Source: Acidimicrobiaceae bacterium (lineage in GTDB: Bacteria > Actinomycetota > Acidimicrobiia > Acidimicrobiales > Poriferisodalaceae). From it: a stretch of DNA of 64,000 nucleotides. The position numbers and the translations under genes are program-made. The stretch is taken from NCBI GenBank assembly GCA_026713105.1, contig JAPOPC010000064.1, positions 62,001 through 126,000 of the forward strand, in the 5' to 3' direction. Below, piece after piece: positions 4,752 through 62,241 of this stretch. The notes beneath the pieces are model-generated. The model did not search any database and was not told the origin of the DNA. It was given only the letters and a program-made list of their open reading frames with translations. The first letter of the stretch is position 1. Each line of letters opens with the position of its first letter.

Positions 4752-7586
4752 ATGGAGCAGTATCTCCTGTTCGCTGTCGTCGGTTTGGGCTTCGGCAGTA
4801 TTTACGCGGCCGTGTCCATGGGCGTCGTCATCACCTACCGCGGCACCGGCGTGATCAACTTCGCCACTGGTGCCATGGCCATGTGGGGTGCCTACGTCTA
4901 CGACGAACTGGTGCGCAGCGGTGACCTGGTGTTTCCGGTGGCGGTGGTGCCCCACAGTGTGAGTCTGGGCGAGGACGGTTCATTGCCGTTCGCCCTGTCC
5001 TTCGTGCTGGCCTTGGCTTCGTGCAGCTTGATCGGCCTGCTGGTGCACTTCGCCGTCTTCCGGCCACTGCGCCGGGCGCCGGTGCTGGCGAGGGTGGTCG
5101 CCTCAGTCGGCGTGCTGTTGACAATCCAGGCGCTGATTGTGCTGCAATTCACCAGCACACCCCGCAACGTGCCGCCGATCCTGCCGAACGAACCGGTCAG
5201 CATGGCCGGCATCAGCTTCTCGCGAGACAGGCTGTGGCTGACAGCGGTCGTGGTACTGATCGCGGTGGCACTGTGGGCATGGTTCCGCTTCACCCGGCTG
5301 GGACTTGCTATACGAGCCTCCGCGGAGAATGAGCGAGCTGTCGGCTTGGCCCGCTACTCGCCCCAATTGCTGGCCGGCACCACGTGGGTGCTGTCGAGCA
5401 CCGTCGTCGGCGCCGTGATCATCTTGAGCTCGCCGACGGTGATCCTGAATCCGTTGACGTACGTGCTCGCCATCGTGCCGGCACTGGCAGCGGCGCTCAT
5501 CGGACGGCTCTCGTCGATCGGTATCACCGTCAGTGCGGCGCTGGCGCTGGGCGTCATGCAGTCCATCGTTGTGTTCCAAGCCAGCAAGACGTGGTGGCCG
5601 GACTGGGCGGTGTCGGGCCTGGGCGATGCGGTGCCATTCGTGGTAATCGTGCTGGCACTGTTCTTCGTCGGCGACGCACTCCCCAGCCGCGGTGCCGTCG
5701 AGTCCGATCCGCTGCCAGAAGTGTTCCGGCCCAAGATGCGGCCCCAAGTCGTCATCGCCATGGTGCTGGCCGCAGGCGCGGCCGTAGTGCTGACCTCGGG
5801 CAGCTATCGATTCGGGATCATCACCAGCATGATCATCACCATCATCACGCTCTCGCTGGTGGTGTTGACCGGCCTGGTGGGCCAGATTTCCCTCGCTCAG
5901 GCAGGCATCGCTGGCACGGCTGGTTTCGCCCTGAGCAAGCTGGGCGATGCTGCAGGCATACCGTTTCCCATATCGCCCTTGCTGGCAGCGCTGGTGGCGA
6001 CGGCGTTCGGCGTCTTGGTGGGCATCCCGGCGCTGCGCATTCGCGGCGCGCAACTGGCCGTCGTGACATTGGCAGGCGCCGTAGCTCTGGAGAAGTTCAT
6101 TTTCCGGAATCCCAGCTTCACCGAGGTGGCGGGGAATCCGATCTCGGATCCAACGCTGTTCGGCCTCAACATGGGCGTGCGGGAAGGACGCACAATCGCA
6201 CGCGTCGAGTTCGGGATCCTGGTGCTGATCTTGATGGCGATTTGTGCAGTCTTGGTGGGCAACCTGGCCCGCAGCGCTACTGGACGACGCTTCTTGGCAG
6301 TGCGCTCAAACGAGCGGGCAGGTGCATCGATCGGTATCTCGATTGCGAATACGAAGCTGCTGGCATTCGGCATCGCCTCGTTCATGGCAGGACTGGGCGG
6401 GTCGTTCATCGGCTACAGCCGCGGGCAGCTTTCCGCCGACAGCTTTACCGTGCTCGTCGGCTTGAGCTTCATGGCATTCGCCTACTTGGGGGGCATCACC
6501 AGCGTCTCGGGCGCTGTCATTGGTGGCACATTTGCTCCCTTGGGCATCGGGTTTGTCATCTTGGACAGGAACCTGGAACTCGGTACCGCGTATGGGCTCC
6601 TCGCCGGCATCGGCCTGGTGTTGACCGCGATCTTCAATCCGGAGGGCATCGCGGGCGCGAATCGCAAGAACTTCGAGAAGATGAAAGCGATGCTTGCGGC
6701 GCGAGCAGCCGCGAAGGTCGCCGACGCGAAGGACCCAGACGCAGCGGCGCCGGCGCCGGCGCCGCCGCTGGACGTTCAATCGTCGGGGTCCGTGCCTGAG
6801 CCATCATCCCGGGACCGGCCGAGCTTCGACGATGCCCCCGTCGTCCTCGCAGTCGATGAGCTCACCGTCCGCTACGGCGGCCTCAAGGCCGTGGACGAAG
6901 TGTCGCTGCGCGTCCGCGAGGGCGAGATCGTCGGGCTCATCGGTCCGAACGGCGCCGGCAAAACCACCATGATCGACGCCCTGACCGGGTTTGTCCCTTC
7001 CGATGGGCGCATCGTCTTCGACAGTCGGGAACTCACGAGCGAGCTGCCCTACCAGCGGGCGCGCATGGGCCTGTCGCGTACGTGGCAGTCGCTCGAACTC
7101 TTCGGCGATCTGTCGGTGCGGGAGAACGCCCAGGTGGCCCAGGAGCGAGCCTCGATTCGCTCGGTGCTCGCGGATTTTGTCAATCCGGCACGACCGGTCG
7201 ACCTCGAGCGGGTGGATGCCGCACTGGATCTGGTTGGCCTCGCTAACGACGCCGACGCCCGACCGGGCGATCTGCCGCTGGGACGCCAAAAGCTGGTCGG
7301 CGTTGCCCGGGCCTTGGCCAGCTCCCCGCGAGTGATGCTGGCCGACGAGCCCGCAGCCGGTCTCGACACCGCCGAGAGCCGGACGCTGGGCCGCGAGATC
7401 GTAGACATCGCCGAAGGCGGCGTGTCGATCCTGCTGGTCGACCACGACATGGGCCTGGTGCTGGAGGTCTGCGACTACATCTACGTGCTCGACTTCGGCC
7501 AGATCATCGCCGAAGGCACCCCGGCCGACATTCGGGCGAATGAGGCCGTCATCGACGCCTACCTTGGTTCCGAGGTCCACACATGA
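4752..7586 (+). CDS. Three-domain fused BCAA-type ABC transporter: LivH + LivM permeases + LivG ATPase (copy 1)
   Basis: 944 residues combining three normally separate subunits. Residues 1 to about 310 are LivH-like (MEQYLLFAVVGLGFGSIYAA, then YRGTGVINFATGAM). About 330-640 is LivM-like (LTGLVGQISLAQAGIAG; LRIRGAQLAVVTLAGAVALE). A Pro/Ala-rich linker from about 645 to 695 precedes a LivG-like ATPase to the end. The ATPase has Walker A GPNGAGKT (about 730), Walker B VMLADEP followed by AAGLD, and the H-loop VDHDM. The signature motif is LPLGRQK rather than the usual LSxGQ, which is unusual. The ATG at 4752 starts 63 bp after the binding protein; copy 2 starts at 9826. Confidence 0.93.
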   Translation: MEQYLLFAVVGLGFGSIYAAVSMGVVITYRGTGVINFATGAMAMWGAYVYDELVRSGDLVFPVAVVPHSVSLGEDGSLPFALSFVLALASCSLIGLLVHFAVFRPLRRAPVLARVVASVGVLLTIQALIVLQFTSTPRNVPPILPNEPVSMAGISFSRDRLWLTAVVVLIAVALWAWFRFTRLGLAIRASAENERAVGLARYSPQLLAGTTWVLSSTVVGAVIILSSPTVILNPLTYVLAIVPALAAALIGRLSSIGITVSAALALGVMQSIVVFQASKTWWPDWAVSGLGDAVPFVVIVLALFFVGDALPSRGAVESDPLPEVFRPKMRPQVVIAMVLAAGAAVVLTSGSYRFGIITSMIITIITLSLVVLTGLVGQISLAQAGIAGTAGFALSKLGDAAGIPFPISPLLAALVATAFGVLVGIPALRIRGAQLAVVTLAGAVALEKFIFRNPSFTEVAGNPISDPTLFGLNMGVREGRTIARVEFGILVLILMAICAVLVGNLARSATGRRFLAVRSNERAGASIGISIANTKLLAFGIASFMAGLGGSFIGYSRGQLSADSFTVLVGLSFMAFAYLGGITSVSGAVIGGTFAPLGIGFVILDRNLELGTAYGLLAGIGLVLTAIFNPEGIAGANRKNFEKMKAMLAARAAAKVADAKDPDAAAPAPAPPLDVQSSGSVPEPSSRDRPSFDDAPVVLAVDELTVRYGGLKAVDEVSLRVREGEIVGLIGPNGAGKTTMIDALTGFVPSDGRIVFDSRELTSELPYQRARMGLSRTWQSLELFGDLSVRENAQVAQERASIRSVLADFVNPARPVDLERVDAALDLVGLANDADARPGDLPLGRQKLVGVARALASSPRVMLADEPAAGLDTAESRTLGREIVDIAEGGVSILLVDHDMGLVLEVCDYIYVLDFGQIIAEGTPADIRANEAVIDAYLGSEVHT

Positions 7587-9825: not shown

Positions 9826-12663
9826 GTGGATCAGTACCTCCTCTTCGCGATCGTCGGCCTGGGATTCGGCGGCATCTACGCAGCGCTGTCGATGGGCTTG
9901 GTCATCACGTACCGAGGCACAGGCGTCATCAACTTCGCCACCGGGGCCATGGCCATGTGGGGGGCCTACGTCTACGACGAGCTCAGCCGCACCGGCGACC
10001 TCGTGCTGCCGGTGGTGGTCCTGCGCAACCGAATCGGCCTCGGAGGCAGCTCAGGCACGGTGCCGTTCGCAGTGGCGATCATCCTCGCGGTGCTGTCGTG
10101 CAGCCTCATCGGCCTCATGGTGCATTTTCTCGTGTTCCGGCCGCTTCGACGCGCTCCGATCCTGGCTCGCGTCGTGGCGTCGGTGGGCGTGCTGCTGGTG
10201 ATCCAAGCCATGATCGTGATGCACTTCACCAGCACAGCCCGCGTCGTCGCTCCGATCTTGCCGAACGAACCGGTGAGCTTCGCGGGCATCAGCTTCTCGC
10301 GCGACCGCCTGTGGCTTACCGCCGTCGTGCTGGCGACTGCCGTGGTGGCCTGGGCATGGTTCCGCTTCACGCGACTGGGGCTCGCCACGCGGGCATCCAC
10401 CGAGAACGAGCGGGCGGTCAGTCTGGCCCGCTACTCGCCGCAGATGCTGGCGGGCTCCACGTGGGTGCTGTCGAGCACCGTCGTCGGCTTCATCGTCATC
10501 CTGACCTCGCCGATCGTCACCTTGAGCCCCTTGACCTACATCCTCGCGATCGTGCCCGCGCTGGCCGCGGCGGTCATCGGTCGCCTGCTGTCGATCGCCG
10601 TAACCGTGGCGGCGGCGTTCGGCCTCGGCATCTTCCAGTCGATCGTCGTCTACCAGACCACCAACCCGTGGTGGCCCGACTGGGCCATCACCGGGATTTC
10701 CCATGCACTGCCGTTCGGCGTCATCGTGATCGCCCTGTTCGGCTTGGGTCACACGCTGCCGTCCCGCGGCGCTGTCGAAGCCGATGCCCTGCCCGAGGTG
10801 GTGAGGCCGAAGATGCGCCCCGGTGTGGTGACAGCCGTCGTGGTGGCCGCAATCGTGCTGACCGTGGTGACCCAAGGCAGCTATCGCATCGGGATCATCA
10901 CCAGCATGATCATGACCATCGTCATGCTGTCGCTGGTGGTGCTGACCGGCCTCGTCGGCCAGATCTCGCTGGCCCAAGCCGCGATCGCAGGGGCGTCAGG
11001 CTTTGCGCTCAGCAAGCTGGGCGACTCCCTCGGCATCCCATTTCCCATCTCCCTGCTGCTGGCGGCACTCATGGCCACCGGCTTCGGCCTCGTGGTGGGT
11101 ATCTCCGCCCTGCGGATCCGCGGCGCGCAGCTTGCTGTGGTCACGCTGGCGGGTGCCGTAGCGCTCGAGGAATTCGTATTCCGCAACACCGCCATCACCG
11201 GCCTGTATGGCAACCCGATTTCGGGGCCGTCGCTCTTCGGTGTCGACCTGTCCATCCGCGAAGGCAGGAATTTCGCGCGCATGGAATTCGGGCTCTTGGT
11301 GGTCGCGGTGGTGACCGTGTGCGCGATCGCCGTGGGAAACCTGGCGCGCAGCGCTACGGGGCGCCGGTTCCTGGCCGTGCGCTCGAATGAGCGGGCCGGG
11401 GCGTCGATCGGCATCTCGGTGGCCAAGACCAAGATGCTGGCGTTCGGGATCGCGTCGTTCCTCGCCGGCCTCGGCGGCGCATTCATCGGCTACAGCAGGG
11501 GCCAGCTGTCCGCGGAGAGCTTCGCCGTGCTGATCGGCTTGAGTTTCTTGGCGCTGGCGTACCTGTGCGGCATCACCAGCGTCGCCGGAGCAATCATCGC
11601 CGGGCTGTTCGCGCCGCTCGGCATCGTCTACATCACCACCGACCGGATCGCCGAGCTCGGCCGCTGGTACCAGTTCTCGGCTGGCGTGGCACTCGTGGTC
11701 ACCGCCATCTTCTTTCCCGAGGGCCTTGCCGGCGCGTACCGGCAGAACCTCGCACGGTTCAAGGCGGTTCGGGCAGGCAGGCGCGCCAGGGCCGCGGTCC
11801 GCGGCGGCGAGTTCGGCACTGTGTTTGCCGCCGATGCCGCAGAGTCTCCCGGCGAGGTCCCAGCAGCATCGCGCTACCGGCGCAAGGTGCGCCCCCGAAG
11901 CTTCGAAGATGCACCCGTCGTGCTGGATGTCACCGATCTGACGGTTCGATTCGGCGGACTGAAGGCGGTAGACGGAGCATCGCTGCGGATCCGTGAGGGC
12001 GAGATCGTCGGGCTCATCGGGCCGAACGGCGCCGGCAAGACGACATTCGTCGATGCCCTCACGGGTTTCGTCCCATCGCGGGGGCAGGTCACCTTCTGCG
12101 GGAAGCCGCTCACCAGCGAAGCACCCCATGTTCGCGCCCGGTTGGGCTTGACGCGCACATGGCAGTCGCTCGAGTTGTTCGACGACCTGACGGTGCGAGA
12201 GAACGTGCAGGTCGCCGCCGAGCGTTCCTCGTTCGGCTCCGTGCTCGCCGACTTCGTGGTGCCGACGCGACCCGCGGAAGAGTCCCGGGTGGATGGGGCG
12301 ATGGAGCTGGTCGGGCTGAACCGCGACACCGAGGTGAAGCCCGCAAGCCTGCCGCTCGGCAGCCAGAAGCTGGTCGGCGTGGCGCGGGCGTTGGTGTCGG
12401 TGCCGCGGGTGATGCTCGCCGACGAGCCCGCCGCCGGGCTGACGACGCCCGAGAGCATCGCGCTGGGTGTGCGGCTGCTTGATGTGGCTTCCGAAGGCGT
12501 GTCGATCTTGCTGATCGACCACGACATGGGTCTGGTGCTCGAGGTGTGCGACTACATCTACGTGCTCGAATTCGGCCGGGTCATCGCACAGGGCACGTCG
12601 GCCGAGATCCGCGTCAACGAGGCCGTGGTGAACGCCTACCTCGGCTCAAGCGCCGAAGCCTGA
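9826..12663 (+). CDS. Three-domain fused BCAA-type ABC transporter: LivH + LivM + LivG (copy 2)
   Basis: A 945-residue paralogue of the protein at 4752, with the same order of LivH-like, LivM-like and LivG-like domains. The first 53 residues differ from copy 1 at only five positions. The start is GTG at 9826 (MDQYLLFAIVGLG). The linker before the ATPase is less Pro-rich and more basic (ARAAVRGGEFG, then RYRRKVRPR). Walker A is GPNGAGKT, Walker B VMLADEP followed by AAGLT, H-loop IDHDM, and the signature is again non-standard, LPLGSQK. No LivF follows; the next gene converges from the other strand. Confidence 0.93.
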   Translation: MDQYLLFAIVGLGFGGIYAALSMGLVITYRGTGVINFATGAMAMWGAYVYDELSRTGDLVLPVVVLRNRIGLGGSSGTVPFAVAIILAVLSCSLIGLMVHFLVFRPLRRAPILARVVASVGVLLVIQAMIVMHFTSTARVVAPILPNEPVSFAGISFSRDRLWLTAVVLATAVVAWAWFRFTRLGLATRASTENERAVSLARYSPQMLAGSTWVLSSTVVGFIVILTSPIVTLSPLTYILAIVPALAAAVIGRLLSIAVTVAAAFGLGIFQSIVVYQTTNPWWPDWAITGISHALPFGVIVIALFGLGHTLPSRGAVEADALPEVVRPKMRPGVVTAVVVAAIVLTVVTQGSYRIGIITSMIMTIVMLSLVVLTGLVGQISLAQAAIAGASGFALSKLGDSLGIPFPISLLLAALMATGFGLVVGISALRIRGAQLAVVTLAGAVALEEFVFRNTAITGLYGNPISGPSLFGVDLSIREGRNFARMEFGLLVVAVVTVCAIAVGNLARSATGRRFLAVRSNERAGASIGISVAKTKMLAFGIASFLAGLGGAFIGYSRGQLSAESFAVLIGLSFLALAYLCGITSVAGAIIAGLFAPLGIVYITTDRIAELGRWYQFSAGVALVVTAIFFPEGLAGAYRQNLARFKAVRAGRRARAAVRGGEFGTVFAADAAESPGEVPAASRYRRKVRPRSFEDAPVVLDVTDLTVRFGGLKAVDGASLRIREGEIVGLIGPNGAGKTTFVDALTGFVPSRGQVTFCGKPLTSEAPHVRARLGLTRTWQSLELFDDLTVRENVQVAAERSSFGSVLADFVVPTRPAEESRVDGAMELVGLNRDTEVKPASLPLGSQKLVGVARALVSVPRVMLADEPAAGLTTPESIALGVRLLDVASEGVSILLIDHDMGLVLEVCDYIYVLEFGRVIAQGTSAEIRVNEAVVNAYLGSSAEA

Positions 12664-17748: not shown

Positions 17749-17815
17749 CCCGACGGCGGAATCGTGGAAGCTGCAGTCTGAGCGCTTCCTGCCGCCCGAA
17801 CTTCACCGCCTCGGG

Positions 17816-18841
17816 CTACGCCGGCTTGCGCACGAGGACGAAGTACATCGGGGTGAAGATCCGCAGCCGGCCGGATTCTGCGAGGGCTGCGGCGGCGGTG
17901 TTCAGTATTCGCGCCGCTCCCGGAGTGCCGCGCGGAACGACCCGAAGGGCTTCGAGAACCCGCAGGAACTGGTAGGTCGCCGATCGCCCGACACGCGAGC
18001 TTCGGAGACCTGTCAGCGACAGCCTGGGGCCGGCCAAGGGCTGGTACCACGGGATCGAAGGCTCGGGGGCCTCAGCCATGTCGAGTGCTTCGAGCACCTC
18101 AAAACCGACCTTGTCCAGAGCGGTATCCACCTCGTGCAGCGAGACGATGTCCTGTAGCCCGCCACCGAGTTCGATGTCGTGCTTGAGCTGGCAGTGGTGC
18201 GGGTCGCCCACGTCGAATCGATCCGTGAGGCACCACTCGAACGATAAGAAGCAGCCTCCTGGCTTGAGCAGACGGAACGCCTCCGCGAAGACGTCGACGC
18301 GATCAGGCGCATGGCAGGTCGATTCGAACGCGTAGATGGCATCGAACGACTCGTCCGGTTCATCCACAGCGGTGAAGTCCGATTCGAGATAGGTCCCGAG
18401 CTGGCTCAGCCCTGCCGCCTCGGTGTAGGCGACGGCGCGTCTGATCTGGTAGGCGCTGATGTTGACTCCCACAATCTGCGATCCCGAGAAACGGGCGATT
18501 TCTCTCAGCGGGCCGCCGACGCCGCAGCCGAAGTCAGCGACGCGCATGCCGGGCCGCAGCCCGAGCTTGAGTGCAACGAAGTGCTCCTGACGCGCAATTG
18601 AAGCAGCACGGCTCTCGCCCGGAACCCGGGGGGCAAAGTGAAACGACTCACCCCAGCCGTACTCGTACAGATCGGTCGCAAGGTCGTAGTAGTTCTCCAC
18701 AAACGCCCGGTGATCGGTCGCTCGTCGATCTCGACCGTTGCGGCGCCCGAACTCGAAACTGCGTTCGTGCGCGCCGACGCTGGACTCGACATCGTCGGGA
18801 TCCAAGGATCGTTTGAGTATCTGTGAGAGCCGGGTTGGCAT
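17816..18841 (-). CDS. Sterol C-methyltransferase (SMT / Erg6-like)
   Basis: A 341-residue SAM methyltransferase with the hallmarks of sterol 24-C-methyltransferases. YEYGWGESFHFA (59-70) is the Erg6 signature. VADFGCGVGG (101-110) is SAM motif I in its Erg6 form and continues into PLREIARFSG and ISAYQIRRA. IPWYQPLAG and IFTPMYFVLVRKP mark the Sterol_MT_C domain at the end. It would add a methyl to a sterol side chain, or to a related isoprenoid, using SAM. No squalene epoxidase or cyclase gene is in the window, so the substrate could be de novo or acquired sterol. The start at 18841 lacks a clear ribosome site. It is the last gene of a three-gene minus-strand run. Confidence 0.88.
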   Translation of the reverse strand: MPTRLSQILKRSLDPDDVESSVGAHERSFEFGRRNGRDRRATDHRAFVENYYDLATDLYEYGWGESFHFAPRVPGESRAASIARQEHFVALKLGLRPGMRVADFGCGVGGPLREIARFSGSQIVGVNISAYQIRRAVAYTEAAGLSQLGTYLESDFTAVDEPDESFDAIYAFESTCHAPDRVDVFAEAFRLLKPGGCFLSFEWCLTDRFDVGDPHHCQLKHDIELGGGLQDIVSLHEVDTALDKVGFEVLEALDMAEAPEPSIPWYQPLAGPRLSLTGLRSSRVGRSATYQFLRVLEALRVVPRGTPGAARILNTAAAALAESGRLRIFTPMYFVLVRKPA

Positions 18842-18885: not shown

Positions 18886-20256
18886 CTAACTGTCCAGTGT
18901 GTGCAGCCTGATGTCGGGGTCGTAGGCGGCTGCTGCGAACCAGAACGTGTCGATGTGCTCGATGGGCTGAAGTTGGGTTCCCGCTAACGGGCCTTCGAGG
19001 GCCCGGCCGAGTATCGACCATGTCGTGCCGGTCTGATCGTCGGTGAATCCTCCTGGGCCGTCCGAGCTCGCAGCGTCGGGCACGCGCGTGAAGGTCAGCA
19101 CCTGGCCGTCCACCGATGGGTCGAATGCTCCGGTCGCGCCGACATCGCGGCCGAACGCGACCTGATCGTGCTGGATCGGCGTGGCGGTACCCGGCAGATG
19201 GAAGGCGACAACCTGCGAGCCGTCCAGATCCAGCGACAGCACGCCTTCGGACTGCAGCGTGTCGTGCTGCACCGCGACCGACTCGCCGCCGTAGCGGATG
19301 ACCAGCACGCGAGTCTGCGGCGGCAGCCTCGGATCGGGCACCCCGCCGAAGAAGATCGGATTGCCGTCGGGAGAGTCGTAGTTGACATAGGGATTGGTGC
19401 CGTATGAGCGCCCAAAGCCGCCGGGGCGCTTCAACACCAGGCCATTGGGGTGCTCGTTGAGGAACGTCTCGAAGGCCACGGTGGACATGGGGATCAATTC
19501 CAGCTGCGAACCGGTGAGGGCACCTGCGATGGCCTGGCCGGTGTAGTGGGCCCACAGGCTCTCGGTCTGGCGGTCGTACATGACCAGCGCAGAGTTGTAA
19601 AGCCGGCCCGAGGTGCCGAAGTCGAAGATGCGATCGCCGAGCTGCCGGTAGTACCCGATGGCGGTGTTGCACAGCGGGCAGTAGGTGATGGTGACGGGCT
19701 CGCCGCCGACGGTGTCATTGACGATCTCGTGCCAGAGCATCACCTGCACTGGGTAGGCGCGGGCGTCGCCGTTGAGCGTGAGCGTGACGACGGCCTCCTG
19801 GGGCTGCAGAGTTCCGACATCGGTGGCTCGTTCGAATTCCGGCCCGTCGATGGAAGGGATGCCGTCGGGCGGGGGTCCGCCGGACAGGACATCGAGCGGC
19901 GAGACCAGCGGCTCGGGCAGCAGCGGTGCAGTCATGCCATCGCGCAGCGCCGAGACGGTGGCCTCGCGCGGGCCGCCGGGGATCTGCGTGACCTTGACGT
20001 CGACGATCACCTCGGATGGCGTGGTCGTCGGGGGGGCGGTGACCGTCGTTGCCGGTGCGGTGTCGGCGCTCGCTGCGCTCGTCACACTTGAGACAGCGGT
20101 ATCCGGCGCCGGCTGCTCGTCGTTCGACGAGGTGTCGGCGCACCCCAGTGCGACGAGCAAGAGCGCCGCCGCCAGCAGCGCCGGAATGCCAACAGCGGCA
20201 AGTCGTCGTGCCGGCGCGGACTTCAGCCGGAACCGATGCCACTGCCGTGGAGCCAT
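18886..20256 (-). CDS. DUF3179 domain-containing lipoprotein
   Basis: A 456-residue secreted lipoprotein. The signal ends LLLVALGC with Cys39, followed by a Thr/Ala/Pro-rich linker. The DUF3179 domain follows, recognisable from AYPVQVMLWHEIVNDTVGG, ITYCPLCNTAIGYYR and FGTSGRLYNSALVMYDR. The CPLC pair could bind metal or form a disulfide. The biochemical function of the family is unknown. The gene starts 36 bp after the membrane-protein gene and ends 44 bp before the SMT gene, so the three may form one operon. Confidence 0.9.
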   Translation of the reverse strand: MAPRQWHRFRLKSAPARRLAAVGIPALLAAALLLVALGCADTSSNDEQPAPDTAVSSVTSAASADTAPATTVTAPPTTTPSEVIVDVKVTQIPGGPREATVSALRDGMTAPLLPEPLVSPLDVLSGGPPPDGIPSIDGPEFERATDVGTLQPQEAVVTLTLNGDARAYPVQVMLWHEIVNDTVGGEPVTITYCPLCNTAIGYYRQLGDRIFDFGTSGRLYNSALVMYDRQTESLWAHYTGQAIAGALTGSQLELIPMSTVAFETFLNEHPNGLVLKRPGGFGRSYGTNPYVNYDSPDGNPIFFGGVPDPRLPPQTRVLVIRYGGESVAVQHDTLQSEGVLSLDLDGSQVVAFHLPGTATPIQHDQVAFGRDVGATGAFDPSVDGQVLTFTRVPDAASSDGPGGFTDDQTGTTWSILGRALEGPLAGTQLQPIEHIDTFWFAAAAYDPDIRLHTLDS

Positions 20257-22267: not shown

Positions 22268-24187
22268 ATGGCAGCAGGCCAGACGGCAGAGGATGTGGGC
22301 ATGCGTCCAGCGATCAGCATCGACTCCGATACGGGTCGCAAGGTCTTCAACACCCGGGCGGCGAAGGCATCGGAGAAGATCGCCGGCAAGGGCTACTCGG
22401 TGACAGCCGATGAGCACCTCAAGGAGCTGCCGCCTCCCCCGCCTGGTGCCGTGTTCAATGCCGAGGAGCAGGCCAAGTACCGGGACTTCAAAGAACGACG
22501 CCGGGGCGCGGCGGACTACATGGCGATGGAGGGCGAGTTCAAGCGTTACCTCGACGACGTGTATTCGGAGCCGCCGATCGAGCGTGAGGCGCTCGACGAC
22601 GAATGCGAGGTGTTGGTGATCGGGGCAGGGTTCGCCGGGCTGTTGCTGTGGCACAAGCTCAGCAACGCCGGCTTCACCGACGTGCGCTTCTGCGAGAAGG
22701 GCGGCGACGTCGGCGGCACCTGGTACTGGAACCGCTACCCGGGCATCGCCTGCGACGTGGAGTCCTACAGCTACCTGCCGCTGCTGGAGGAGATGGGCTA
22801 CATCCCCTCGATGAAGTTCGCGTCGGGCTTCGAGATCCTCGAGTACTGCCAGTCGATGGCCGACAAGTTCGGCTTCTACGACCACTGCCTGTTCCACACC
22901 ACGGTGGATTCGACAGTGTGGGACGAGCAGACCGGCCGCTGGACCGTCTACACCGACCGCGGCGATGCCATGAAGGCCCGCTACGTCATCCTGGCCAACG
23001 GCATCCTGACCAGCCCGAAGCTGGCCCGCATCGACGGCATGGCCAGCTTTGAGGGAGAGTCGTTCCACACGTCACGCTGGGACTACAACATCGATCTCGA
23101 AGGCAAGCGGGTCGGCATCATCGGCACCGGTGCCACGGCGGTGCAGGTCATTCCCGAGATCGCCAAGGTGGTCGGCGAGCTGTACGTGTTCCAGCGGACG
23201 CCTTCGTCGATCGACGTGCGCGACCAGCGGGCCACCGACCCTGAAGAGATCGCCGAGTGGTCGAAGGAGCCTGGCTGGGCGCGGGCCCGGCGCAAGCGCT
23301 TCTCGCGCATTTCCTCGGGCCGCACTGCCATCAAGGCCAACGACGACTACCTCGCCGGCCGGGTGGCGGACTTCAAGGAGCGCAAGCAGCACGAGCGCAA
23401 GCTGTCGCCCACCGAGCTGGTGCAAAAGCAGCTCAACACGAACTTCCGGATCATGGAGCAGATCCGCGCCCGGGTGGACGCGATCGTGGAGGACCCAAAG
23501 ACTGCCGAGGCGCTGAAGCCGTACTACCCGTACGGCTGCAAGCGACCGACGTTCCACGACGAGTACCTGCCCACGTTCAACCTGCCGCACGTGCACCTCG
23601 TGGACACCGCACCGATGGGAGTGCAGGAGATCAACGAGCGAGGCGTCGTGCACGAGGGCATCGAGTACCCCCTCGACGTGCTCATCTACGCCACCGGGTT
23701 CCAGTGGATGGCAACCTCGACGTTCAACATGATCGAGGGCCGCGACGGCGTGACGCTGAGCGAGAAGTGGCAGACCCAGGGCACCCGGACGTTCCTCGGC
23801 CTGCACAGCCATGGGTTCCCGAACCTGTTCATCGTGTCGGGCCCCCAAGGCGGCGGCGGCAGCTTCAACTTCACCGACGCCATCGACACCCACGGCGACT
23901 ACATCATCTGGATGCTGACCGAGATGCGGGACAAAGCGCTCAACGTGGTCGACATCACCGAAGACGCAGAGGTGTCCTACGCAGAGCACTGCCGGGTGGC
24001 CGACATCACCACCGCTCCGCTGCGCGACTGCCTGTCGTATTACAACGGGCACGGCGATGCCCAGCCCGGCAGCTTGGCGTACTACGGCGGCGGCTACTGG
24101 CACAAGTTCCGGATCGCCGCCCAGGAATCGCTCGACCCGTATCTGTTCGAGTTCAAATCGGAACGGGTGGCCCAACCCGCCGGCTAG
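22268..24187 (+). CDS. Flavoprotein monooxygenase, type I Baeyer-Villiger (BVMO) family
   Basis: A 639-residue FAD/NADPH enzyme that inserts oxygen next to a carbonyl. The FAD motif is GAGFAG (119-124). The first BVMO fingerprint is GGTWYWNRYPGIACD (149-163). The second, FEGESFHTSRWD (261-272), fits FxGxxxHTxxW. The NADPH Rossmann motif GTGATA follows at 286. About 110 residues precede the FAD domain, as in cyclododecanone- and steroid-type BVMOs with long N-terminal extensions. GGAGGT eight bases before the ATG fixes the start. The substrate is unknown; a steroid or terpenoid ketone is possible given the SMT nearby, but this is speculation. Confidence 0.93.
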   Translation: MAAGQTAEDVGMRPAISIDSDTGRKVFNTRAAKASEKIAGKGYSVTADEHLKELPPPPPGAVFNAEEQAKYRDFKERRRGAADYMAMEGEFKRYLDDVYSEPPIEREALDDECEVLVIGAGFAGLLLWHKLSNAGFTDVRFCEKGGDVGGTWYWNRYPGIACDVESYSYLPLLEEMGYIPSMKFASGFEILEYCQSMADKFGFYDHCLFHTTVDSTVWDEQTGRWTVYTDRGDAMKARYVILANGILTSPKLARIDGMASFEGESFHTSRWDYNIDLEGKRVGIIGTGATAVQVIPEIAKVVGELYVFQRTPSSIDVRDQRATDPEEIAEWSKEPGWARARRKRFSRISSGRTAIKANDDYLAGRVADFKERKQHERKLSPTELVQKQLNTNFRIMEQIRARVDAIVEDPKTAEALKPYYPYGCKRPTFHDEYLPTFNLPHVHLVDTAPMGVQEINERGVVHEGIEYPLDVLIYATGFQWMATSTFNMIEGRDGVTLSEKWQTQGTRTFLGLHSHGFPNLFIVSGPQGGGGSFNFTDAIDTHGDYIIWMLTEMRDKALNVVDITEDAEVSYAEHCRVADITTAPLRDCLSYYNGHGDAQPGSLAYYGGGYWHKFRIAAQESLDPYLFEFKSERVAQPAG

Positions 24188-25269: not shown

Positions 25270-26826
25270 GTGCCGATGGCTGGTGGGGACCGCAGCGTGC
25301 GTGGAGGGCGACGGGGGCGCTCGAGGCGGGTCGCGGCGCGCACCGCCGGTCCTGCGCCGTCGGTGATCGGCACGACGCCGCGCCGGCATATCCCCGTCTA
25401 TGAGCTTCTGGATGACGATGCGCTGTCGCAGCTCGAGGCGCACACCGACTGGATCCTGTCCGAGATCGGGGTCGAGTTCCGTGGCGACGACGAGGCGCTG
25501 GAACTGTTCCGATCCGCGGGGGCGCAGGTGGACGGCGTGCGGGTGCGATTCGAGCCCGGCCTGGCCCGCCAGCTGTGCTCGACGGCGCCGGGGCGCTTTT
25601 CCATGTGGGGCCGCGACGGTCGGCGTATCGAGATCGGCGGCGATCACGTGCTCTTCACGCCTACGTACGGCCCGCCGTTCGTGACCGACCTTGATGGCGG
25701 TCGGCGCTATGCCACCATCGCCGACTTCCGGAACTTCGTGCAGCTGACCTGGATGTCGCCGTGGCTGGCCCACGGGAGCGGCACGGTGTGCGAACCCGTC
25801 GATGTCCCGGTCAACAAGCGACACCTCGACATGGTGGACGCCCACCTGCGCTATTCGGCCAAACCATTCATGGGAGCGGTGACGGCACCAGAGCGCGCCG
25901 AGGACTCGATCGCGATGGCCCAGATCGTGTTCGGAGCGGAGTACATGGAGACGCACTGCGTCATCCAGGGCAATGTGAACGTGAACTCGCCGCTGGTGTG
26001 GGACAACACGATGAGCGGCGCCCTGAAGGCGTACGCCCGGGCGAACCAGGGCTGCCTGATCTCACCGTTCATCATCGGCGGGGGCATGGGACCGGTGACT
26101 CAGCCGGCGCTGATCGCGCAAGCACACGCCGAAGCCATGACTGGAATCGCCCTCACCCAGCTGGTGCGGCCCGGCTCGCCGATGATCTACGGAAACTTTC
26201 TGACCACCATGGATCTCCGCTCGGGCGCGCCGACGTTCGGGACCGCCGAGTCGTCGCTGGCCACCTATGCCGTCGGCCAGCTCGCCCGACGGCTCGGCCT
26301 GCCCTTCCGCTGTGGCGGCCACTACACAGCTTCGAAGATCGCGGATGCCCAAGCCATGCAGGAATCGGCTGATGCGATGACGCCGGGGCTGCTGGCCGGC
26401 GCGAACTTCATACTGCAGGCAGCCGGGTGGCTGGAGGGCGGGCTGACGCTCGGATACGAGAAATTCGTGATGGATGCCGACCGCTGCGGCATGCTGCACC
26501 GCCTGCTGGAAGGCCTTGCCATCGACGACAACGAGCTCGGGTCGTCGGCGTTCAACGAAGCCGGACCGGGTGGCAACTATCTGGCGACGGCCCACACCAT
26601 GGCCAACTTCGAGTCGGCGAACTTCGAGGCTGCCTTGTGCGACACCCGCTCGTTCGAGCAATGGTCCGAAGAGGGCAGCCTCGACATGGCCCAGCGTGCA
26701 AACCGGCAGTGGAAGCAGACGCTGGCCGACTACGAGCCGCCCCCGCCCCTCGATCCGGCCGTCGACCGTGAACTGCAAGCCCTCGTCACCGATCGCAAAG
26801 CAGCCGTCCCCGACGCCTGGTACTGA
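25270..26826 (+). CDS. Trimethylamine methyltransferase (MttB) family protein, non-pyrrolysine
   Basis: About 518 residues (GTG at 25270 or ATG at 25276). The family is recognised from HTDWILSEIGVEFRGDDEAL at the start of the barrel, SPFIIGGGMGPVTQPALIAQ, GSPMIYGNFLTTMDLRSGAP and the C-terminal FNEAGPGGNYLATAHT. The frame is read through without an internal TAG. It therefore belongs to the non-Pyl branch, whose studied members demethylate glycine betaine, carnitine or proline betaine onto a corrinoid protein. No corrinoid protein or reactivation gene is adjacent. A basic 30-residue N-terminal extension precedes the domain. Confidence 0.88.
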   Translation: MPMAGGDRSVRGGRRGRSRRVAARTAGPAPSVIGTTPRRHIPVYELLDDDALSQLEAHTDWILSEIGVEFRGDDEALELFRSAGAQVDGVRVRFEPGLARQLCSTAPGRFSMWGRDGRRIEIGGDHVLFTPTYGPPFVTDLDGGRRYATIADFRNFVQLTWMSPWLAHGSGTVCEPVDVPVNKRHLDMVDAHLRYSAKPFMGAVTAPERAEDSIAMAQIVFGAEYMETHCVIQGNVNVNSPLVWDNTMSGALKAYARANQGCLISPFIIGGGMGPVTQPALIAQAHAEAMTGIALTQLVRPGSPMIYGNFLTTMDLRSGAPTFGTAESSLATYAVGQLARRLGLPFRCGGHYTASKIADAQAMQESADAMTPGLLAGANFILQAAGWLEGGLTLGYEKFVMDADRCGMLHRLLEGLAIDDNELGSSAFNEAGPGGNYLATAHTMANFESANFEAALCDTRSFEQWSEEGSLDMAQRANRQWKQTLADYEPPPPLDPAVDRELQALVTDRKAAVPDAWY

Positions 26827-57769: not shown

Positions 57770-60700
57770 TCATGACAGACGGTGCTGGTTGGCCTTGGCG
57801 AGAGCGACCAACTCGACGGCCAGCTCGTCGAGGCTGGCGTAGGCGAAGAGGTTGCTGCGGTCGAGCGTCTGCTTGATCGCCTTGCGCAGCTCGTCCTGCT
57901 TGGTGGCGTTGTCCCAGAGGCCAACCACGCCAATGATCCGGCGAATCTCGGCCACCAACTCGCTCGTCAGTGCAACCAACCGTTCACTCGTGTCGGGCTG
58001 CGAGCTGGCGACCTTCTCGGCCATCTGGTTGTGGAAGGGCAACTCGGTGTTCGGGTCCAGCCCCGTGTCTTCCTCGTCGGTTCGGCCGGCGTTGATCTCG
58101 GCGACCAACTCTTCGAACTCGAGCGCCATCTGGTCCCACCGCTCTTCGAGCCGTTCGAGGATCTCGTCGACTCGCTGCGAGAGTCGTTCGTAGTAGACGG
58201 GGTCCTCGTCGATGTGCTCACGGATGTGGTGGCGCACGGCATGTTCCATCTCCGACGCCTTCGCACGATCCGAGCCGATCCCGTTGATGTGGGCACTGAA
58301 CGCCGGATCAGTGATCCTCACCGGGCGAATCTTCCGGCTGAGGTCCAGCACGGTGATGTGCCGGTCGATCAGTCGGCGGACCTTCTCCTTGTACTTGTGC
58401 GGATCGAAGTCGCCGTCTGGCGTGTCGCGATAGCGGCGTCGGGCCAGCACCTGGACTTCGCCGAACAAGTTGACGTCATCGACGAACGGCAGCGCTTCGG
58501 GCCTGGGCAGCACCGTGTCGAACGTGGTCAAGAAATTTCGCAGCGCAACGTCGAACCCGGCCCGCAGCCGCTCGTCGGCCAACACCTGCACACAGGCTTC
58601 GATCGCGTCGATGGTCGCCGCTGGCTCGACACCTCGCTGCACGAAGATCTGGCGAACCCGCTGGCGCTGCGGCTCCAGCTTCTCGATCTCGATGGTCAGC
58701 GGGCGCAGCGCACCGTCCACATCGGGATCCAGCTCGCCATCGGTGTTGGTGTACGCAGCAAGCGCAATCGTGAGCTGAGCAGACACGCCGTAGTAGTCGA
58801 CGACCAAGCCATAGCTCTTCTTCGGCGCAGTCCGGTTGACACGAGCGACAGCCTGCAACAGCTCGGCCTCTTGGATCATCCGGTCGAGGTAGAGTACCTG
58901 AGCCTGCGGCGCGTCGAACCCGGTCAGCAGCATCGATTTCACGATCAGCAGCGCAAGCGGGTCGTCGTCAGCGCTTCCCGGCCCGAGCGGCAGCTTGAAA
59001 CTCTGGATGCGCGCCTGTTGGCGGGCCTGGTCGGTCCACTGGGCGTAGTGCGGCGGGTCGTTGTGGTCCCCCGAGATGACGGGTGCGAAGTCGAGCTCAC
59101 GGATCAGGTCGATCTGTCCCGCGGCGGTGCGCATGAACAACTCGTCGGCGTCGAGCGAGTCGCCAGGGCCATCGAGCAAGCCGGGCAACCGCTGTTCCAA
59201 CTCGGCAAGCAGTTCGTCACGCGCACGCCGCAATGCCTCGTGGTACCTCACGCATGCCTCTCGGCTGGTGGCGACAATCATCCCCTTGAAACCGTCGGGC
59301 ATCACCGTGCCGATGTAGTGCCGGAGGATGTCCTTGGCTTTCGCCTCGATCAGCTCGGGCGCTTCGAGCACCTGTGCAGTGGTGGCGTACTTGCGCTGGA
59401 GCGTTTTGCGCTGCTCGTCGGTGAGTTCGGCGAACCACTGGAAGAAGACGTCGTCCATCTTCGAGGCGCCCTTGACCGCAGCATCGGTGGTGCGGCCCTC
59501 GTACAGGATCGGCACCGTCGAGCCGTCGGCCTCAGACTCGGACAGCGTGTACCGGTCGAGGTAGCCACCGAAGATCTCCAGCGTCTTCTTGCGCTTGCCC
59601 AAGATGATCGGAGTGCCGGTGAAACCGATCCGGGCGGCGTTGGGTACCGCGTTCATCAAGTTGGCGTGCAGCGTCGACGCCTGTGAGCGATGCGCCTCAT
59701 CGACCATCACCAGGATCGATTCCGACTCGTTCAGCGTTTCGAACGTCTCGCCTTCGCCCAACCCGTCGCCGTCGTCTCCAGAGGTGTCGCGGTACTTCTG
59801 GATCATCGCCATCACCAAAGCCGGTCCTGGCTGGCGCAGCAGTTCTCGGACTTCGGCGGCGCTTCGGGCGACCTTGATGGTCTCGCCGACCAGTGCTGCG
59901 GTGCTGTTGAGCTGAGCCTGAAGGTCGGTGCGATCGGTGACCAGAACGATCTTGCAGCTTCGGAGCTGGGGATGGCTGCGCATGGCCCGGATCAGGAAGA
60001 CCATGGTCAGGCTCTTGCCCGAACCCTGGGTATGCCAGATAATCCCGCCCCGACGGTCGACATGGCCATCTATGGCGCGGGTATCGCCGGTGAGGAGGCG
60101 CCGCAAAGCCTTCTGGACGCCTCGGTATTGCTGGTACCGGCCGACGAGCTTGATCGTGCGGCCGGCGCCAGCGCCGGTGAACAGCGTGAAGTGCCGGACG
60201 ATGTCCAGCAGCCGTTCGGGCGCCAGCATGCCTGCCGTCAGCAACTCTTGTTGCGTAACGGCATTGACGGGCTTGCCGAGCGAGGCGGCGACCTCGTCGA
60301 CGGTGGCGGGGCATGGATCTTTCCACGCCATGTAGTGCTCGGGTTCGGCCGAGAACGTCCCCGCCTGAGCGCGCTCGCCCGTCGTGGCGACGGTGAGCTG
60401 ATTCGTCCAGAAGAGCTGCTCGGCACCCTCGTTGACTCCGCTGTCGCGCTGGTTGGCGTATCGGCGGAGTTGGTCGATTGCATCGGTGACGGCGCTGTCA
60501 TGGCCAGGCGGTTTGGCCTCGATCACGACCAGCGGAATGCCATTGACGAACAGCGTCACGTCGGGCCGGATGTTCGGCGCCTGCCCCGGTGTGGCCACCG
60601 CGAACTGCGACACGGCAAGAAAATCGTTGGCTGACCAGTCATCCCAGTCGATGTAGTTGACGACTTGGTCTCGGCCTCTGTCCCAGCCGTCGAGTCCCTC

Positions 60701-61018
60701 GACCGTGGTTCCGCCCAGCAGCAAGTCGGTCGACAACCGGTTTGCCTCCAGCAACTTGGCACCCGCCGGCATCGACCGCAGATCTGCGATCGCAGCGCTG
60801 ATTCGAGCCTCGTCCAGCCACGCGCTGCCGTCGGGACCACCGTTGATCTCTTTCAGCGCCTCACCGAGCCGCCGCTCCAAGATCACATCGCGATCGGCAG
60901 CACGAGCGTCGACTCCGTCAGCCTGCCGTTCGAACCAGATCAGCGTTTCCCAACCCAGCGAGAACAGATGCTCAAGCAGCGGCCGTTCCACCCGCTCCCA
61001 CTCCGGACCAGGAGTCAC
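57770..61018 (-). CDS. hsdR: Type I restriction enzyme R subunit (HsdR)
   Basis: A 1082-residue motor-nuclease subunit that translocates and cuts unmethylated DNA. The PD-(D/E)xK nuclease site is Asp153 in RPDVTLF and Glu167/Lys169 in VVIEAK, with the QxxxY motif after it (QLRRY). Helicase motifs are Walker A HTQGSGKS (329-336), DEAH (440-443), GFTGTPI and QAVARVNR. The C-terminal helical part ends NLFAYASLDELAVELVALAK. The start is GTG at 61018, overlapping the hsdS stop by 4 bases (GTGA). It appears intact. Confidence 0.96.
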   Translation of the reverse strand: MTPGPEWERVERPLLEHLFSLGWETLIWFERQADGVDARAADRDVILERRLGEALKEINGGPDGSAWLDEARISAAIADLRSMPAGAKLLEANRLSTDLLLGGTTVEGLDGWDRGRDQVVNYIDWDDWSANDFLAVSQFAVATPGQAPNIRPDVTLFVNGIPLVVIEAKPPGHDSAVTDAIDQLRRYANQRDSGVNEGAEQLFWTNQLTVATTGERAQAGTFSAEPEHYMAWKDPCPATVDEVAASLGKPVNAVTQQELLTAGMLAPERLLDIVRHFTLFTGAGAGRTIKLVGRYQQYRGVQKALRRLLTGDTRAIDGHVDRRGGIIWHTQGSGKSLTMVFLIRAMRSHPQLRSCKIVLVTDRTDLQAQLNSTAALVGETIKVARSAAEVRELLRQPGPALVMAMIQKYRDTSGDDGDGLGEGETFETLNESESILVMVDEAHRSQASTLHANLMNAVPNAARIGFTGTPIILGKRKKTLEIFGGYLDRYTLSESEADGSTVPILYEGRTTDAAVKGASKMDDVFFQWFAELTDEQRKTLQRKYATTAQVLEAPELIEAKAKDILRHYIGTVMPDGFKGMIVATSREACVRYHEALRRARDELLAELEQRLPGLLDGPGDSLDADELFMRTAAGQIDLIRELDFAPVISGDHNDPPHYAQWTDQARQQARIQSFKLPLGPGSADDDPLALLIVKSMLLTGFDAPQAQVLYLDRMIQEAELLQAVARVNRTAPKKSYGLVVDYYGVSAQLTIALAAYTNTDGELDPDVDGALRPLTIEIEKLEPQRQRVRQIFVQRGVEPAATIDAIEACVQVLADERLRAGFDVALRNFLTTFDTVLPRPEALPFVDDVNLFGEVQVLARRRYRDTPDGDFDPHKYKEKVRRLIDRHITVLDLSRKIRPVRITDPAFSAHINGIGSDRAKASEMEHAVRHHIREHIDEDPVYYERLSQRVDEILERLEERWDQMALEFEELVAEINAGRTDEEDTGLDPNTELPFHNQMAEKVASSQPDTSERLVALTSELVAEIRRIIGVVGLWDNATKQDELRKAIKQTLDRSNLFAYASLDELAVELVALAKANQHRLS

Positions 61019-62241
61019 GCCGCCACCGTCCGAATTCGACCCGAGAGCAGATCCCCTACGAGACCGGTGCGGATGCCCCTGAGCTTCTTGGCGGTAGCTC
61101 GGTGTGCTTCAATCGAGGCATGCGCCGAATCAATGCGTGCCACTTCGGCCAGCTGCATTTCGAGATCTGGAAGCGAGATCTTCGTTGCACCAATGATCTG
61201 CTTGCTTAGATTTGGTTGCCCCGAACCCTGAACTGACGCCAGCATTCGCCTGGAACCAATACGAAGGGCCCAGTAGAGCCACCGGCGATTTGCGCGGTCG
61301 TGTTCAGGCTCAACGGCCAAGACGGCCTGATTAGTCGCCGCATCAATCTCGAGCCAGCCGACCTCTCCGGCCGTTGCGCCGTACATTGCAACTACCGGTG
61401 TACCGGAGGGCACGATACGTAGCTGTAAATCTTGTACTGCCTTGGCCGAGACTGTTTCTTCGGTCGTCAGAACCGATGATCCGGCGACTTCACCAGACTT
61501 AATCCAAGGAATTCCGCCGCCGTAGTACTCAGGCACACTGCGCGGAGCCGTCCGACCGGCAGAAAGAGCACAGAAGTCAGCGAGAGCCAACGTCGAGAGC
61601 TTCGAATCGGGACGACCGAGACTGGCTCGTTGCAAGATCCCCTCGAGTACCTGCTCATGCTTGGAGATGACGCGCTCACTGGCTTGGATGGATTCGTCGA
61701 TCGTGTCAAGGATGTCTGCAATCCTTTGTTGCTCATCCAGCGGCGGTACCGGAATCACCAAATCGCGGAGCTCTTCGTCGTAGATGTGAATGACCGTCGA
61801 GCCACGTCCCAAGCGCGATTTCTGGATGCGCGATGATGCGCAATCAGCAACATGCCCTAAGAAACTCGCATTGATTTCGATTGCTGGTCGGAGAATGATC
61901 ACATCGCCGCCGCAGTAGGCGCGCCCACGCATGAGATTCACGGCGGACCGGCCAATGTCATCCACGTTCTCCCCCGAACTGGCGAAGAGGATGTCACCGT
62001 AGCGAAGTGGCGTATAGGAGTTGACGCGATCAGGGCGAATCCGCGATCGGGTGTCCGTGATTCGGCAGTCGTGATGTGTGTAGAGATCCCCATATCGAAC
62101 ACACGGAAGACCGTCATCAACCTCGTCTTGCTTGGAACCGCCGCCACTCCTAAGGAACAGGCCAATGTGTCCCAGCCGCTCAGCCGACCATCCGTCTGGC
62201 AACACTGCAAGAAGACCGCGTTTGACTCGCTCGTTACTCAT
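61015..62241 (-). CDS. hsdS: Type I restriction enzyme specificity subunit (HsdS)
   Basis: A 408-residue DNA-recognition subunit with two target-recognition domains separated by conserved coiled-coil helices. The first TRD runs from about 15 to 165. LVIPVPPLDEQQRIADILDTIDESIQA is split here as VIPVPPLDEQQRIADILDT, the central conserved region. The second TRD runs from about 215 to 350 and ends in another helical repeat. ATG at 62241 is favoured; a TTG two codons upstream is possible. It overlaps the hsdM stop by 8 bases and the hsdR start by 4. Recognition sequence unknown. Confidence 0.94.
   Translation of the reverse strand: MSNERVKRGLLAVLPDGWSAERLGHIGLFLRSGGGSKQDEVDDGLPCVRYGDLYTHHDCRITDTRSRIRPDRVNSYTPLRYGDILFASSGENVDDIGRSAVNLMRGRAYCGGDVIILRPAIEINASFLGHVADCASSRIQKSRLGRGSTVIHIYDEELRDLVIPVPPLDEQQRIADILDTIDESIQASERVISKHEQVLEGILQRASLGRPDSKLSTLALADFCALSAGRTAPRSVPEYYGGGIPWIKSGEVAGSSVLTTEETVSAKAVQDLQLRIVPSGTPVVAMYGATAGEVGWLEIDAATNQAVLAVEPEHDRANRRWLYWALRIGSRRMLASVQGSGQPNLSKQIIGATKISLPDLEMQLAEVARIDSAHASIEAHRATAKKLRGIRTGLVGDLLSGRIRTVAA

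Follow-up and report, generated by a model that had tools for sequence, protein, structure and literature searches.

The window (the whole stretch of 64,000 nucleotides that was analysed) carries on its minus strand a gene for a homologue of sterol C24-methyltransferase, here called SMT1. The open reading frame begins with ATG and is translated without internal stops. The features at the locus are:

17816..18841, minus strand: SMT1, sterol C24-methyltransferase homologue, 341 aa (Pfam domains, tree, purifying selection)
18632..18667, minus strand: ERG6 region I motif YEYGWGESFHFA, aa 59-70 (computed position, residue comparison)
17822..18013, minus strand: Sterol_MT_C domain, aa 277-340 (Pfam)
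18886..20256, minus strand: DUF3179 protein, 44 bp upstream of SMT1 (Pfam, E 1e-97)
17751..17813, plus strand: FA_hydroxylase gene remnant, 63 bp, 87% identical to positions 12898-12836 of locus L005

The SMT1 polypeptide is composed of a class I SAM methyltransferase domain (Methyltransf_11, E 7e-19) followed by Sterol_MT_C, which matches at 74.5 bits (E 7e-21, cut-off 21.7) over profile positions 2-65 of 66. After YEYGWGESFHFA come, in order, DFGCGVGGPLR, FESTCHAP and FEWCLTD, and both the YEYGWG of region I (as YEYGWGESFHF) and the E-x-T-C-H-A-P box (as ESTCHAP) are present, both of them motifs of the ERG6/SMT family. The Erg6 signature, the SAM motif and the full Sterol_MT_C ending described in the initial annotation are confirmed by these matches. 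Residues at ERG6 positions 81, 82, 98, 108, 125, 195, 199, 224 and 276 are conserved. ERG6 Asp152 is Ala in the window protein and Glu in both plant SMTs; that Asp152 is essential in ERG6 is a mutational claim and no definition of the family. Against reference sequences, SMT1 is 45.5% identical to Arabidopsis SMT1 over 336 aa, 41% to yeast ERG6 over 314 aa and 35% to Arabidopsis SMT2 over 316 aa. Solved methyltransferases match at E 2e-24 or worse, the best being MitM, a non-sterol enzyme aligned over residues 51-199 only, and no solved structure found by sequence search matches the C-terminal sterol domain. The entry 6f5z, named as a 24-sterol C-methyltransferase, was considered as a solved SMT and set aside, as it matches residues 92-199 only. 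NCBIfam models, among the matches listed, fall far below their cut-offs on SMT1 and on a second SMT of the same genome. Grouping with tocopherol or other non-sterol methyltransferases, which the initial annotation had named as evidence against its reading, is not seen in the alignments and profiles, where the full-length likeness is to SMTs. Judged by its sequence, the window gene adds a member to the known ERG6/SMT family. Pairwise dN/dS among six orthologues (the window and five loci of the genus, 15 pairs) is 0.07-0.21; SMT1 is under purifying selection and its open reading frame is therefore no chance product.

The loci closest to the window (L003-L009; 84-88% identity) belong to metagenome-assembled genomes (MAGs) labelled Acidimicrobiia bacterium. 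Gene calls in the loci come from our own codon-based script, not a published gene finder. The order Baeyer-Villiger-type monooxygenase, membrane protein, DUF3179, SMT, bacterioferritin, DtxR-like regulator, SDR and molybdopterin oxidase is conserved at L003, L004, L005, L007 and L008, and as far as the contig ends in L006 and L009. DUF3179 adjoins SMT in all seven. It was considered as a sterol partner and rejected: the adjacency is genus-wide but absent from the SMT loci of other phyla, and so no function is claimed for it. None of the 10 other genes between 12.7 and 27.9 kb of the window is a known sterol ring-making gene; one lacks a Pfam match, and two, the SDR and the Baeyer-Villiger-type monooxygenase (22268-24187), come from families in which some enzymes act on steroids. 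When all called window genes were compared with a panel of sterol-cluster proteins, only SMT and DUF3179 were recovered, the latter itself a panel member.

In five relatives of the genus (G001, G002, G003, G008 and G009) the SMT domain has, at a distance of about 1.3 kb, an FA_hydroxylase domain, a member of the sterol desaturase superfamily. At L003, L004, L005 and L008, FA_hydroxylase and DUF7802 genes are inserted between SMT1 and bacterioferritin (PF04116 by profile on the L003 copy, 11065-11889, other copies by similarity; DUF7802 by profile on L004). In the window the 63-bp remnant abuts the 3' flank of SMT1 in what is a clean deletion, and the DUF7802 gene is also gone. Loci L006 and L007 likewise lack the FA_hydroxylase gene, and L007 retains a piece matching the end of its DUF7802 neighbor. 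As a genus-specific sterol gene FA_hydroxylase was rejected: among the 50 other relatives 22 also have PF04116, and the window has lost the copy linked to SMT, so the gene is not required. The statement in the initial annotation that no sterol-making genes are nearby therefore stands for ring-making genes (0/10), and has to be qualified by the FA_hydroxylase gene near SMT in the five relatives and by its remnant here.

Elsewhere in the window, a pair of similar proteins, each about 945 aa long (4752-7586 and 9826-12663), lie in two successive clusters and resemble, by eye, fused parts of branched-chain amino acid ABC transporters. A trimethylamine methyltransferase family (MTTB) protein is encoded at 25363-26826 (E 5e-206), and genes that by eye are type I restriction-modification-like occupy 57770-64000.

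The genome of the window (G000; 3.96 Mb, 117 contigs, 94% complete) carries a second, different SMT, SMT2, on contig C17. A tree was made from called genes longer than 250 aa (L035, L106 and L040, too short, were left out), in which 86 rows were reduced to 68 by dropping identical or contained sequences and three eukaryotic references were added to give 71. The tree is without a non-sterol outgroup, and the eukaryotic references fall in it outside both SMT1 and SMT2 clades; the positions of the long branches, L037 and AtSMT2, are unsure. The SMT1 clade (41 rows, support 100/100) contains the window gene and MAGs labelled Acidimicrobiia, Chloroflexi, Acidobacteria, Alphaproteobacteria, Rhodospirillales, Nitrospira and Gemmatimonadetes, and its genomes include some with and some without oxidosqualene cyclase (OSC)-type cyclases. 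At L022, two SMT1-clade genes adjoin a fusion of squalene epoxidase (SE) with OSC and genes similar to CYP51, SdmA and SdmB, and this adjacency ties the SMT1 clade to sterols. The SMT2 clade (17 rows, 100/100) holds the C17 gene, other Acidimicrobiia, the Chloroflexi genome L083, and L020. The genus has 18 Sterol_MT_C matches, which tree and similarity assign as eight SMT1, eight SMT2 and two of a third type. Both clades depart from ERG6 at particular residues. Of the 41 SMT1-clade rows, 33 have Ala for Asp152, and 20 have Cys for His199, a residue that the window protein keeps; this replacement and this variability weigh against a sterol C24-methyltransferase reading. In the SMT2 clade all 17 rows have Met at position 81, and Val, Ile or Leu replaces Glu82. 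SMT2 also lies near gyrB/gyrA-like genes (by eye) in L056, L099 and L110, from three families of the class, which suggests that its site close to the origin is ancient or favored.

The initial annotation had proposed a search of the genome for squalene epoxidase and oxidosqualene cyclase; profile searches of G000 with PF08491 for the epoxidase and PF13249 for the cyclase find neither, and PF13249 likewise has no match in any of 10 further genomes of the genus. Most genomes compared are MAGs, in which acquired islands can be lost in binning. One of 16 SMT-bearing genomes of the class outside the genus has a PF13249 match; at 354 bits and within a frame of 701 aa, it resembles a squalene-hopene cyclase. 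This profile picks up cyclases in 22 of the 35 genomes of loci L003-L037; 37 loci were found, and L038 (21 residues) and L039 (a generic SAM domain) were left out. Weak or partial matches aside, the scores form two classes, of about 330-390 and about 140-170 bits. A squalene epoxidase-cyclase fusion is present at L029, whose genome is in the lower class, and we infer that the upper class is squalene-hopene cyclase and the lower OSC. From its gene content, the bacterium of the window appears unable to make the sterol ring.

The distribution of SMT in the class is closely followed by that of the ERG4/ERG24 reductase family. Sterol_MT_C is found in 11/11 genomes of the genus and in 0/50 other relatives, and in 17 of 296 sampled genomes of class Acidimicrobiia. 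The ERG4/ERG24 profile PF01222 is found in 10/11 of the genus (absent from G001, 84% complete) against 0/50 other relatives, and, outside the genus, in 15 of 16 SMT-bearing genomes of the class (in G321 below cut-off only) against 0/20 SMT-less ones. For Acidimicrobiia as a whole the family is present in 25/27 SMT-bearing and 0/67 distinct SMT-less genomes (the 20 were taken from 279 without a match, and three are shared with the 50 relatives), the SMT-less controls being all of the window's order and none from f48 and f59, the families to which 14 of those 16 SMT-bearing genomes belong. One SMT-less genome, G168, shares its genus with the SMT-bearing G332. In other phyla (L010-L035 and L037), PF01222 exceeds its cut-off in 20 of 27 SMT-bearing genomes and not in G074, G076, G078, G081, G082, G086 and G095; the link is looser outside the class, which weighs against a salvage explanation. 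G094 (L036, labelled uncultured Acidimicrobiales), which is not counted among these 27, has SMT1, two reductases and no cyclase.

Three PF01222 copies are present in G000, at 114-149 bits, running from profile positions 73-76 to 432 of 432; two stand in tandem on C114 and one is on C13. The two of the three that were compared with solved structures are nearest to 4quv, a delta-14 sterol reductase (E 3e-39 and 2e-28). In a quick reductase tree (42 rows reduced to 35), the 28 from genomes without an OSC-type match form one branch (SH-aLRT 98) apart from seven of cyclase-bearing genomes, which were sampled at their clusters only. The cyclase-bearing G092 has a second reductase copy of the lower score class, and the split into two branches may in part be a sampling effect.

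Further genes recur with the SMTs, among them one in which GPP34, the Golgi phosphoprotein 3 domain, is fused to a cytochrome P450 in one protein, and one for a FAD amine-oxidase-like protein:

L083:4409-6394, L099:10993-12996 and L116:247-2253: GPP34-P450 fusion (Pfam)
L099:6089-7312, L083:7693-8991, L154:13232-14620, L027:826 and L020:16780: FAD amine-oxidase-like protein (similarity)

The GPP34-P450 fusion recurs near SMT genes in several phyla and, by its shared sequence start and heme motif, is present in 10 of the 11 genomes of the genus (backed by BLAST in G003, G004, G005, G007 and G010, and by Pfam in G000), with none in G002 at the E-value used. In all six neighborhoods examined (G000, G003, G004, G005, G007 and G010) its partner is a Rieske protein of KshA_C type, assigned by similarity and by Pfam on L156; the Rieske gene called in G000 is shorter, at 238 aa. 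About 18 kb separate the fusion from SMT2 on C17 of G000. A contiguous SMT2, GPP34-P450, Rieske protein, FAD oxidoreductase and MMPL transporter with a sterol-sensing domain occur in G332 (L160), and Chloroflexi L083 has the same five kinds of gene together with two reductases within 12 kb. The MMPL transporter was considered as the sterol transporter BstA and, by the BstABC-type profile comparison, rejected, scoring 30 bits against a cut-off of 1400 for the BstA model. Copies of the FAD amine-oxidase-like protein in different phyla share 79-83% identity with that of L083 and lie near GPP34-P450, often near MMPL or SMT genes. A literature search on GPP34 with cytochrome P450 gave, by title, three insect papers and none on such a fusion.

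Two of the 11 members of the genus, G005 and G007, carry a CYP51-SdmA-SdmB-like cluster, and in neither genome is there a PF13249 cyclase:

L080:10805-14467 (G005) and L142:4227-7862 (G007): CYP51 with SdmA- and SdmB-like genes (similarity)

The CYP51 of L080 matches 6mcw, Cytochrome P450 51 of Methylococcus, at E 7e-107, and the G007 copy is 95% identical. The SdmA- and SdmB-like genes of L080 score 399 and 300 bits, both below the curated cut-off of 600. No P450 of CYP51 score (204-209 bits) is found in the other nine genomes of the genus, G000 included, the next being at 165. OSC adjoins CYP51 in L029; in G005 and G007 a PAC2 gene lies there instead, within 120-200 bp (recognized in G007 by its start and order only). 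CYP51 and SdmA/SdmB-like genes are unexpected for a pure late tailoring function, and the clusters suggest either that a cyclase was lost from a former cluster or that lanosterol-type sterols of neighbors are processed.

Since neither squalene epoxidase nor cyclase is found in the genome, alkylation of sterols made by others is the best reading of SMT1. It is probable, judging from gene content and homology, that SMT1 is an SMT1-clade sterol C24-methyltransferase in a bacterium apparently unable to make the ring, most likely methylating delta-24 sterols from outside. The suggestion of the initial annotation that sterols made elsewhere are modified gains support, at the level of predicted functions, from a genome that holds SMTs and reductases and shows neither early enzyme. 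SMT1 would methylate C24, at the delta-24 double bond, of a desmosterol-like sterol taken up from a host, from the diet or from neighboring bacteria; SMT2 may introduce a further carbon or work on a different substrate; and a double bond left by methylation would then be the target of the ERG4/ERG24-type reductases. The substrate, its uptake, the order of steps and a product serving as membrane lipid are putative elements of this scheme, as is host association, for which "sponge-associated" comes from MAG naming and from the accessible text of the Ircinia study (PMC9531527).

Other activities must be weighed against methylation of sterols from outside. SMT-like triterpene methyltransferases of the alga Botryococcus act on polyprenoids, and SMT1 might similarly act on a non-sterol polyprenoid, such as squalene or the side chain of a carotenoid or quinone. 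The lack of PF13249 from 11/11 genomes of the genus would fit, as would the replaced Asp152 and variable His199 of the SMT1 clade and the SMT2 clade without Tyr81 and Glu82 in 17/17 rows; this is nevertheless unlikely given the SMT1-clade members beside the SE-OSC cluster, the co-occurrence of SMT with ERG4/ERG24-type reductases, and the full-length similarity to plant SMT1. The enzymes could instead serve the breakdown of host sterols for carbon, through attack by the KshA-like oxygenase, P450s and Baeyer-Villiger-type monooxygenase, as the KshA_C-type Rieske proteins beside GPP34-P450 and the monooxygenase at 22268-24187 would allow. However, C24 methylation is not known as a step of sterol side-chain degradation, and breakdown is judged very unlikely. 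The smallest probability is given to sterol synthesis de novo with a cyclase missed by the MAG or by the profile. Such synthesis would account for the CYP51, SdmA- and SdmB-like genes of G005 and G007, and steroid gene clusters are described for Acidimicrobiia MAGs in the available text of the Ircinia study (PMC9531527), but PF13249 finds none in 11 genomes of the genus while recovering OSC-type matches of about 140-170 bits in other phyla, PAC2 and no OSC follows CYP51 in G005 and G007, and G000 has no PF08491 match. Methylation of sterols from outside is the reading retained here.

Bacterial SMTs are less rare than the initial annotation has it: the domain occurs in 17/296 sampled genomes of the class, and Brown (2023) reports 7966 homologues in a metagenome database, 24 metagenomic ones having been tested (PMC10070321). 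According to the accessible text of that paper, these SMTs, like those considered here, come from uncultured bacteria, many from sponge metagenomes, and most are active in vitro; the active ones include an SMT of a Chlamydiae MAG that has no other sterol homologues, and use of host sterols is already raised for it by the authors. In that respect bacterial SMTs are already known, down to an active one whose genome has no further sterol genes (PMC10070321). Unlike what is described there, two SMT clades and reductases here recur in cyclase-less genomes, and no Acidimicrobiia enzyme is named in the text available (PMC10070321). In the accessible part of the Ircinia study (PMC9531527), sponge MAGs, Acidimicrobiia included, have steroid gene clusters and SMT1/ERG6 enrichment, with ERG24, CYP51, LSS and SMT1/ERG6 in clusters transferred across phyla. 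The window's genus differs in showing no LSS/OSC, in having SMT1 apart from other sterol genes, and in reductases that form a branch apart from the seven sampled in cyclase-bearing genomes. Sponge-associated chlamydiae and Coxiella have last-step sterol reductases and are thought to use host sterols, as far as the accessible text goes (PMC9666466, citing Gilk 2010); here such reductases accompany two SMTs in actinobacteria whose genomes measure 3.0-4.0 Mb. The BstABC paper, in its available part, notes that host sterols are acquired or modified by many bacteria (PMC10942540).

Plant SMT1 and yeast ERG6 share with the window SMT1 the motifs, both domains and 41-46% identity; they serve complete pathways, and the window protein differs from them in having Ala for ERG6 Asp152. 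A cyclase-less set in Acidimicrobiia was not found in titles and the starts of abstracts, most subscription journals and supplements being beyond reach. The apparent novelty lies in a "sterol tailoring" set that recurs in Acidimicrobiia without a cyclase. To it seem to belong the GPP34-P450 fusion with its KshA-like Rieske partner and, in 2/11 members of the genus, a CYP51-SdmA-SdmB-like cluster without a cyclase.

C24-alkylated steranes serve as biomarkers of eukaryotes and sponges. If bacteria without ring synthesis alkylate the sterols of others, a missing cyclase would be no ground to exclude a bacterium as the source of a side-chain signal, and screens for cyclase alone would overlook such organisms. 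The tailoring set makes the question of sterol salvage directly testable, and it supplies candidates for unknown steps in the GPP34-P450 fusion, the KshA-like Rieske oxygenase and the conserved FAD oxidoreductase. More tentatively, and with rather less than even likelihood, sterol metabolism in these communities may be divided: ring synthesis would fall to the host and to symbionts with a cyclase, and a shared pool would be alkylated and reduced by Acidimicrobiia, Chloroflexi and others that lack one. The transferable set would then consist of SMT1, SMT2, the separate ERG4/ERG24-type branch, GPP34-P450, the KshA-like and FAD oxidases, and the sterol-sensing MMPL protein. Were this so, bacteria would account for some of the holobiont's 24-alkyl sterol, and hence sterane, signal, with no need for one that produces sterols.
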